A DNA stretch of 64,000 nucleotides from Victivallales bacterium (GTDB lineage Bacteria > Verrucomicrobiota > Lentisphaeria > Oligosphaerales > Oligosphaeraceae). The stretch lies in the NCBI GenBank assembly GCA_017535315.1, contig JAFXUD010000078.1, forward strand, positions 1-64,000. Reading direction: 5' to 3'. Shown piece by piece: positions 36,325-39,098 of this stretch; within the stretch, counting starts at the first letter, position 1, and every line of letters begins with the position of its first letter. The position numbers were made by a program, and so were the translations under genes. The notes beneath the pieces were generated by a model, which searched no databases, had not been told where the DNA came from, and worked only from the letters and a program-made list of their open reading frames with translations.

Positions 36325-36367
36325 GCAGGATTATTACCCATACCGAGGGTCTAGGTAATAATCCTGC
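36325..36367. terminator. bidirectional terminator between convergent genes
   Basis: 14-bp perfect stem GCAGGATTATTACC (36325-36338) with GGTAATAATCCTGC (36354-36367), 15-nt loop. It separates the convergent AsmA-like (+) and glycyl-radical (-) genes. There is no long T-tract. Confidence 0.6.
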
Positions 36368-36377
36368 ATACGCCCGT

Positions 36378-38621
36378 TCAGAATTTCCGCCGATTAATGA
36401 CTTCCTGCTGCCATTCGGGGCAAAGAGCGACGAATTTTGCGGAAAAGCCGCAGATACGCACAATGAGGTTCTGGTGCTTTTCAGGATGGATTCGCGCCTC
36501 CTCCAGATCCTGTGATGACATGCAGTTTAGCTGGAGTTGCTGTAAATCAAGAGCAGCAAAACTTCGCAGAAGCGCAACAAGCGTCTCAGGGGTAAAGTTT
36601 TCGCGTTCGACGCAGAGATTAACCACGGAGTTGCCCGCAAAGCGCCTTAGGTTAAGACAGGAGTAGTTTTGCAGGACGGTAGTAAGCGGTTCATGCACGC
36701 GGAAATGCGAGGCATTCACGCTTTGCGAGAGTTCATCGCCAGTATGCCGTCCATCAGGCGTGGCCTTCATCGCATTTCCCCATCGTTTGAATTCACGGTA
36801 GAGCCACATGGCCAACTGGTAGTGCCCGCCGTGTGCATTGGGGATTTCGTCTGCAATTGCGGCAAATTCATCCACAATCCTTTTGGCGAGTTTACACGTT
36901 TGCAGCTGGTTGTCCCCCCAATGTGGTGTTTTCAGAACTCTCTCCCGTAGTTCTTCAGCCCCCTCCCAGTTATTGCGGACGGCCGCAAGCAGTTCAGGCA
37001 AGCTACAACACCTCTCTTCAAAGCAGATTGCTTGGATGGCCAGCAGGGAATCCACGAAATTTGCAAAGGCACCTAGCGACACGGCATGGGGATAGTAGCG
37101 AAGCCCCCCGTCGCCGAAGTCCCGACGCTTTTCCAGGCAGTCAAAGAAGGCAGCTGAATAGGCGGGCGACGGTGAAAGCATCGCCTGGCAGCCGCCGTAG
37201 TCGTGCTGCGCCTGAAGATAATAGCGGAAGATTTCCTTAGCGTTGCCCATGATGGCCTCATAGACCTCCCCAAAGGATTGTGCACCTTCAAGACGGCGTG
37301 GCTTAAACTGGCACCTCTCCAGCTGCTCGTCCGAATAGTGGATGGTGGTCTCCACGATGCGTGCAAGGTTGAAGAAGTTGCTGCCCTCGTTGTCTTCGCA
37401 GCAGGCAACCGAAATGTCCCAGCAGCCGCTGCAGCAGTAGTTTCTGGCATCCTCAAGGGTATGCCCTGTTGCTGTCAGTGCAGGAATGAGACTGTCATCG
37501 TTCAACAGTGAATAGACGCCACGCCCCGAAAAGACATCCTCTCCGATCAGGTTCAGATATTCCTCGCTGGAGGAACGAGAGAAACGACAGAAGAACTTGG
37601 GGTAGATGAGGTTCTGTTCACGGTATGCCTTCAGGAACATTCGAGTCAGTTCATTAAAGACCTCATGCCCCTCGGCATCGCAGCCGCCCAGTGTCAACGT
37701 ATGCTCGTTTTCATGGGAGATGATCATATCGACTTCGTAGTCGCGGTTATAGGCCTGGTCCCCCATCAGCAGAAAGCGACAAATCAAGTCAAATGCCTCT
37801 TCGTGCGTCAACCGCCCAGCAGCCAGATCAGCCTCGTAAAATTTCTGTATCCAAGCATCGGGACGCCCGAGGGTGTTGACGCGCACGCCGTCGATTTCGG
37901 GGAAAACCTCGCGGAAAAAGCCGCAGAGGTTCAATGCCTCGTAGAAGGTGCGCGGTGGCTCCCAAGGCGTGACGGATGCGGCTTCGACCATCATCTGCAT
38001 GAAATGCCGTTCTCTCACGTTTGCAGTACTTGGCAGCATCTGCTTGGCTTTTTCGGCATACAGTCCACTGATGTGTCGGATGACCTCCAGCCCGTGGATG
38101 GCAGTTTCAAGCCACTTCCGCTCGTATGGAGTCTGGCACTTTTCACGTGTGCAGAGTGCCTCCTCGTAGATGCCCTTGAAGCCCGTATTCAGCAAACGAA
38201 AAACAGCAGAGTTATTGTGGCGGTCATCGTAGAACGGTCCCGTGCAAGCATAGAAAAGACTCCCGCGGCTCTGGAAAAGATGCAGAGCATTGGAGAACTC
38301 CCTGTTCTGAAGGAGCCGTTCCTTCATACAGGAGGCAACCACCTGGCCGACTGCGGTGCGGTTCCAGCCACCATACCCGCCGTTTTCGAAGTAGAAAGGA
38401 GACTCGGTGAAAACCACAGGCTGGTAGTTCTCCGCCATGAAGTCATAGGCCTCCCGCCGAAGATCCAATGCATCGCACGACGGATGTTCCTTCGCGTATG
38501 CCTTGATGCGTTCCGAACCCCGCACCGTCATCTCTAGACGTTCCGCATTTGTACAGATATGGATATCCTCACCGTGAAACGCACGAAGCTGTCGCCTAAG
38601 CTCTGTATAATCGTTAGTCAT
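36378..38621 (-). CDS. glycyl radical enzyme of unknown specificity (PFL family)
   Basis: 747 residues. C-terminal glycyl-radical loop RICGFSAKFVAL (Gly725, near the C-terminus as usual), followed by CPEWQQEVINR. The active-site cysteine loop is NYCCSGCWDIS with Cys400; dehydratase-type members usually have GCxE here, and this one has GCWD, with Asp402 in place of the Glu. A further CC pair (407-408) follows. Oxygen-sensitive cytoplasmic radical chemistry is expected after activation by a radical-SAM activase, which is not found nearby in this window. It lies just after the gene for a superoxide reductase. The substrate is unknown. Confidence 0.88.
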   Translation of the reverse strand: MTNDYTELRRQLRAFHGEDIHICTNAERLEMTVRGSERIKAYAKEHPSCDALDLRREAYDFMAENYQPVVFTESPFYFENGGYGGWNRTAVGQVVASCMKERLLQNREFSNALHLFQSRGSLFYACTGPFYDDRHNNSAVFRLLNTGFKGIYEEALCTREKCQTPYERKWLETAIHGLEVIRHISGLYAEKAKQMLPSTANVRERHFMQMMVEAASVTPWEPPRTFYEALNLCGFFREVFPEIDGVRVNTLGRPDAWIQKFYEADLAAGRLTHEEAFDLICRFLLMGDQAYNRDYEVDMIISHENEHTLTLGGCDAEGHEVFNELTRMFLKAYREQNLIYPKFFCRFSRSSSEEYLNLIGEDVFSGRGVYSLLNDDSLIPALTATGHTLEDARNYCCSGCWDISVACCEDNEGSNFFNLARIVETTIHYSDEQLERCQFKPRRLEGAQSFGEVYEAIMGNAKEIFRYYLQAQHDYGGCQAMLSPSPAYSAAFFDCLEKRRDFGDGGLRYYPHAVSLGAFANFVDSLLAIQAICFEERCCSLPELLAAVRNNWEGAEELRERVLKTPHWGDNQLQTCKLAKRIVDEFAAIADEIPNAHGGHYQLAMWLYREFKRWGNAMKATPDGRHTGDELSQSVNASHFRVHEPLTTVLQNYSCLNLRRFAGNSVVNLCVERENFTPETLVALLRSFAALDLQQLQLNCMSSQDLEEARIHPEKHQNLIVRICGFSAKFVALCPEWQQEVINRRKF

Positions 38622-38668: not shown

Positions 38669-39055
38669 CTACTCCACGACATATTGCCAGAGACCGTGGA
38701 TGTTGCAGTATTCGCGGACAATCATGCCCTTCTGGAGGGAGACATAGAATTCCGCCTCGGGTTTCTCGCCTGGCTTGAGGTACTTGCGGTTCACGTAGTC
38801 GCCGTTAATGACTTCGATCCAGACGATGTAGTGCTGCTCTGTCATCGGGTGGGCCTGCTCCTTGCCGACCAAAACTTTCATTCCACTGCCGCTGGCCTCG
38901 GGATACGGGACGTGCTTTTCGAACTTGTACTCCGCCGTTTGTGGCTCTAGCTTCTTCATCTCCTTGCCGCAGCAGGTCAATAAACAGTCGCATCCAACGG
39001 CAACATCAATCACTAGCCCGCAATCCTCACACTTGTAAACATCATTCCTTTTCAT
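38669..39055 (-). CDS. desulfoferrodoxin-type superoxide reductase
   Basis: 128 residues from the ATG at 39055 (GGAG upstream). N-terminal cysteine-rich desulforedoxin-like domain (YKCEDCG then LLTCCGKEM) and a C-terminal SOR domain with EKHVPYP (His ligand), QHYIVWIEV (His) and EYCNIHGLW (Cys and His ligands). The family reduces superoxide to peroxide in anaerobes. The start of the glycyl radical gene is 48 bp downstream, so they are probably one transcript and the SOR may guard the radical enzyme; this is an inference. Confidence 0.92.
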   Translation of the reverse strand: MKRNDVYKCEDCGLVIDVAVGCDCLLTCCGKEMKKLEPQTAEYKFEKHVPYPEASGSGMKVLVGKEQAHPMTEQHYIVWIEVINGDYVNRKYLKPGEKPEAEFYVSLQKGMIVREYCNIHGLWQYVVE

Positions 39056-39098
39056 TTCAATCTCCAATCTGATTGTTTTTTGAAAAAGCCTTACTAAA

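Follow-up and report, generated by a model that had tools for sequence, protein, structure and literature searches.

A glycyl radical enzyme with Asp at the site of the Cys-loop Glu belongs to a very probably undescribed clade and may use a relocated carboxylate

Glycyl radical enzyme (GRE) eliminases carry a CxE motif, which is the signature used to recognise them and the core of their mechanism. The motif is conserved among these enzymes, and the E436Q mutant of HypD and the E470Q mutant of IslA are both inactive (PMC7077986, PMC8473560). A second site concerns the packing of the substrate, which involves an aromatic residue, Phe395 in CutC, Phe340 in HypD and Trp374 in IslA (PMC8473560); an aromatic in this position of the third strand is a common, not a universal, feature of GRE eliminases. 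Asp339 of HypD, the residue just before Phe340, is essential for activity (PMC7077986).

We report here on a GRE, an oxygen-sensitive kind of enzyme, encoded in a 64,000 nucleotide stretch of DNA (hereafter the window) from a Victivallales bacterium. The genome (4.9 Mb in 96 contigs, 95.6% complete) encodes nine GREs, with Cys-loop motifs GCWD (twice), GCYE (three times), TCAE, GCNE, GCWE and ACNR. The second GCWD enzyme lies on contig C22 and is 42% identical to that of the window. Features of the locus are collected in Table 1.

Table 1. The GRE gene, its key codons and the surrounding features, in window positions
Feature	Position	Strand	Remarks
Glycyl radical enzyme, GCW clade, GCWD/Glu306 type	36378..38621	-	747 aa, complete, ATG start
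Gly725 codon GGC, glycyl radical site in RICGFSA	36447..36449	-	codon read directly, domain match
Cys700 codon (QLNC)	36522..36524	-	
Asp402 codon GAC, site of the CxE glutamate	37416..37418	-	codon read directly, alignment
Cys400 codon TGC, thiyl radical cysteine	37422..37424	-	codon read directly, alignment
Glu306 codon, proposed relocated catalytic carboxylate	37704..37706	-	aligned with GD Tyr339 and IseG/HpsG Trp (IslA Trp374)
Glu304 codon, nearly invariant in clade (92/95)	37710..37712	-	clade alignment
His135 codon, aligned with eliminase active-site His	38217..38219	-	invariant in clade (91/91)
ORF, 1178 aa	32744..36280	+	convergent with GRE
Perfect 14-bp inverted repeat GCAGGATTATTACC	36325..36367		10 bp after GRE stop, between convergent genes, found by eye
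Desulfoferrodoxin (superoxide reductase)	38669..39067	-	47 bp upstream of GRE, same strand
Protein, 260 aa	39254..40036	-	upstream of desulfoferrodoxin

In Pfam, the window protein exceeded the cut-offs of PFL-like (276 bits) and Gly_radical (49 bits) by a wide margin. An initial annotation had described a GRE with a GCWD active-site motif, an Asp replacing the CxE Glu and an intact radical loop, and all of this was borne out. Cys400, Trp401 (codon TGG) and Asp402 were read directly in the Cys loop, NYCCSGCWDISVACC, and phmmer placed Cys400 on Cys433 and Asp402 on Glu435 of glycerol dehydratase (GD). Gly725 lies in the radical loop, LIVRICGFSAKF, within an RVxG[FWY]-type motif, and the catalytic Cys is located in mid-protein, as in the rest of the superfamily. 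The AlphaFold2 model, built on a 66-sequence alignment (pLDDT 94.7, pTM 0.94), has the GRE barrel fold. Its best PDB matches in Foldseek were GRE eliminases, the first being the B12-independent glycerol dehydratase 1R8W (TM 0.84), with identities to these characterised GREs of 17 to 23% across the list. We regard it as highly probable that the protein is a working GRE. A second well-conserved Cys, Cys700 (56/58 and 33/36), sits in the strand preceding the Gly loop; the aligned GD residue is Val.

None of the NCBIfam GRE equivalogs (CutC, HypD, HpsG, HpfG, HPAD, IAD, PFL) came near its cut-off with the window protein. The best GRE model was the subfamily TIGR01774, with 253 bits for a cut-off of 678; the equivalogs all scored lower, for cut-offs near 1000. 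Because Cys400 is followed by Trp401 and Asp402, the protein lacks the CxE of GRE eliminases (PMC7077986, PMC8473560) and was not filed among them. The packing aromatic of the third strand is also absent, the aligned site being occupied by Glu306. The protein most likely acts in the manner of a GRE eliminase.

Searches of the family, class, phylum and GTDB contig collection yielded more than 80 distinct relatives, mostly from Lentisphaeria and Kiritimatiellae, many of them from rumen and gut, plus Clostridia. A quick maximum-likelihood tree set this group, the GCW clade, apart from the seven other GREs of the genome (SH-aLRT 100). In the material searched, we found no close NCBIfam equivalog, solved structure or characterised member of the clade, nor any characterised subfamily that naturally carries GCWD, a possibility raised in the initial annotation. 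The GCW clade is in all likelihood an undescribed GRE clade. Cys400 is kept in 95/95 sequences and Gly725 in the 93/93 with data, while residue 401 is Trp in 88 and Gln in 7. Residue 402 is Glu, Asp, Asn, Gly or Ala; according to the tree, it changed at least 10 times within the clade, and deep branches separate the D/N, G and E types. GCWD itself is not a product of chance or error: independent MAGs and the isolate Oligosphaera ethanolica DSM 24202 retain it at 81, 73 and 72% identity. This isolate carries both a GCWD/Glu306 member (L043) and an ACWE/Gly306 member (L108); no activase was present in the flanks examined of either.

Two further proposals of the initial annotation stood in part. 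It had taken the Asp to suggest a distinct reaction: CxE is indeed lost, but Asp402 is not diagnostic, since Asn, Gly and Ala occupy the site in close sister sequences. It had also pointed to extra cysteines; NYCC before the motif and CC after it are present, but Cys396, Cys407 and Cys408 are unconserved in the clade and Cys397 occurs in about half of the members without Glu402, so that these cysteines were dropped as a trait. The only cysteines common in the clade besides Cys400 are those at 314, 495, 533 and 700, with 345 and 724 found in most members without Glu402.

The column most strongly associated with residue 402 was 306, which ranked first of all columns tested. This association came from a column scan between types and was not predicted beforehand. 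Among 95 sequences (one broken fragment was left out), Glu306 was present in 59/59 members without Glu402, of which 34 have Asp, the commonest residue of these types, versus 2/36 members with Glu402. In the other 34 of these 36, residue 306 is Gly, Ser, Asn or Gln. The two exceptions (L070 and L077) have Glu at both positions, and not one of the 95 sequences lacks Glu at both. In an ungapped phmmer alignment, Glu306 falls on GD Tyr339, where IseG and HpsG have Trp. The spacing from this residue to the catalytic Cys is 94 in the window enzyme, in GD (Cys433), in IslA (Cys468) and in HypD (Cys434). It is also 94 from Phe395 in CutC, with Cys489 as the catalytic Cys.

How far the coupling can be pressed was estimated on the tree. 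By parsimony, two changes suffice for residue 306 and four for residue 402, with only 3 independent pairs. In these, Glu306 never changed the same way as Glu402, and changed the opposite way in 1.7 pairs on average; the sign test on 3 pairs was underpowered and not significant. The pattern between the aligned positions is therefore suggestive and short of statistical proof. Columns 568, 412 and 231 also separate the 402 types, so that residue 306 may mark a change of substrate rather than a swap of base.

Because residue 306 aligns with the packing aromatic and is coupled to residue 402, we propose that the catalytic carboxylate may have left the Cys loop and may now be supplied by Glu306, which replaces the aromatic, leaving residue 402 free to vary. 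A radical-SAM activase would form the radical on Gly725, which would pass to Cys400; the latter would abstract a hydrogen from a substrate that would be small and polar and perhaps derived from a carbohydrate, after which a base would take a proton and a C-O (or C-X) bond would be eliminated. The Glu of CxE serves as this base in the eliminases known so far. An active, activase-dependent GCW-clade GRE eliminating with a relocated carboxylate is our best overall explanation, held with moderate confidence, and we lean slightly more firmly to the relocation to residue 306, read from the alignments, taken by itself. That Glu306 is catalytic and that the reaction is an elimination we infer. An elimination of carbohydrate type is a tentative extension, and a carbohydrate substrate a guess.

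Among the alternatives, the one that survives best is that the clade does not perform CxE-type elimination at all, residues 306 (Glu, Gly, Ser) and 402 tracking differences in substrate, and the chemistry possibly being another one such as C-C cleavage. The low identity to all characterised GREs would fit with this, as would the additional columns that split the types and the deep separation of these in the tree. We consider it unlikely, as eliminases, and not PFL, decarboxylases or succinate synthases, head the matches in both fold and sequence, and as a member devoid of Glu at both 306 and 402 is missing. Less probable again is that Asp402 acts as the catalytic base, one methylene shorter and tuned to a bulkier substrate, with Glu306 only binding the substrate. 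Asp402 does align with GD Glu435, and Asp predominates among the non-Glu types. Yet residue 402 is Asn, Gly or Ala in sister sequences whose Cys, Gly loop and Glu306 are unchanged, and several of these adjoin an activase gene. With Glu306 constant wherever Glu402 is missing, a shorter Asp base is less likely than the relocated carboxylate.

The window genes examined included no activase, in agreement with the initial annotation, which had suggested looking elsewhere in the genome. Two were found on other contigs, C22:19751 and C30:12649, the only ones to pass the TIGR02494 cut-off; the TIGR02493 profile gave only weak further matches in the genome. The C30 activase adjoins two other GREs. With nine GREs for two clear activases, either one activase serves several GREs or there are others that escaped recognition. 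In 17 clade loci, of types E, D, N and G, an activase starts downstream of the GRE on the same strand, within a few bases of its stop, with small overlaps in some of them. One such GRE (L041) shares 72% identity with the window enzyme; the activase beside it groups with that of C22, at 60% identity. For this reason, the C22 activase is the likely partner of the window GRE, separated from it in this genome, and would be the stand-alone enzyme that forms the radical. A decaying or inactive GRE, to which the missing activase in the window and the excess of GREs over clear activases might point, is very improbable, since the catalytic Cys, the Gly loop and the full length hold down to about 35% identity and the genome holds a relative of a close homologue's activase. 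Outside the GCW clade, one GRE paralogue (L007, G000:C93:11789-13573) has ACNR, with Arg at the site of the CxE Glu and Lys at the 306 equivalent.

The neighbours of the window GRE, desulfoferrodoxin and the convergent ORF, indicated no pathway. Desulfoferrodoxin was rejected as a partner, as it was not seen near the relatives and its linkage may be accidental. The convergent ORF has no Pfam match and is AsmA-like by eye, and the 260-aa protein has a TIM-barrel-like look and no Pfam or NCBIfam match. The inverted repeat is possibly a terminator, though without a T run; the terminator scan did not report it. Around the relatives, neighbourhoods are poorly conserved and include GH42-like, sialate-acetylesterase-like, rhamnosidase, heparinase-like, GH71/99-like and DUF4838 proteins. 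These point loosely to glycan degradation, a weak link because such genomes seem rich in these genes generally. The only widely recurring neighbours are AraC-type regulators (29 loci) and activases (20 loci), and deducing the substrate from the neighbourhood was abandoned.

Some 15 GREs of the clade, on a Kiritimatiellae/Opitutales branch, have signal-peptide-like N-termini at their predicted starts. Eleven are Tat-like (L051, L054, L055, L058, L059, L060, L063, L065, L070, L071 and L147), for example MYISRRDFIKQSAVAAVASGVATGAFA in L065 and MDITRRNFLGTAAMFTAAAG in L055, and four are Sec-like (L067, L075, L078 and L115). TIGR01409 was above cut-off in L055 and L065, just below in L071, L063 and L060, and unreported for the other five GREs scanned; PF10518 remained below cut-off. 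TatC was present in 8/8 genomes tested, including that of the window, whose GRE has no Tat- or Sec-like signal. These predicted N-termini suggest that exported GREs exist in the clade. Since GRE activation is regarded as cytoplasmic, such export, if real, would come as a surprise. The literature searched contained no relevant paper on exported GREs, on Kiritimatiellae or Lentisphaerae GREs, or on GREs with anhydroglucitol. A broader scenario, in which the carboxylate moved to the packing site, the CxE Glu could then be dispensed with (D, N, G, A), and an exported branch (Tat or Sec) acts on glycan-derived substrates outside the cytoplasm, is rather doubtful as a whole.

If the relocation is true, the natural E/D/N/G/A series would show how a radical enzyme can relocate its base, and would caution against annotating GREs by CxE alone. 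As the acid seems to have moved within the active site, the known rules for predicting GRE function may not apply. The 402/306 series offers a ready mutational test, with both forms present in the O. ethanolica isolate.

Compared to known systems, the window GRE resembles GD (1R8W), CutC, propanediol dehydratase, HypD, IslA/IseG and HpsG in its ten-stranded GRE barrel, Cys loop and Gly loop. GD is the best structural match, and its His164 aligns with His135. The window enzyme differs from these eliminases by its 17-23% identity, by CxD for CxE and by Glu306 for the substrate-packing aromatic. PflD and YbiW, whose structures hold the sugar-derived ligands 1,5-anhydroglucitol-6-P or 1,5-anhydromannitol-6-P, have the same GRE fold and are about 20% identical to it, with no sign of a common substrate. 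The relay of the radical from Gly to Cys is as in pyruvate formate-lyase, and CxE is missing in both; the match to that enzyme is weak (34 bits) and limited to the C-terminal part of the window GRE. In contrast to the window GRE, pyruvate formate-lyase carries a Cys-Cys pair. Finally, the aminoacyl radical enzymes are also noncanonical GRE homologues, mostly from MAGs (PMC11528403); they replace the radical Gly, whereas the window GRE keeps it and changes the acid of the Cys loop.
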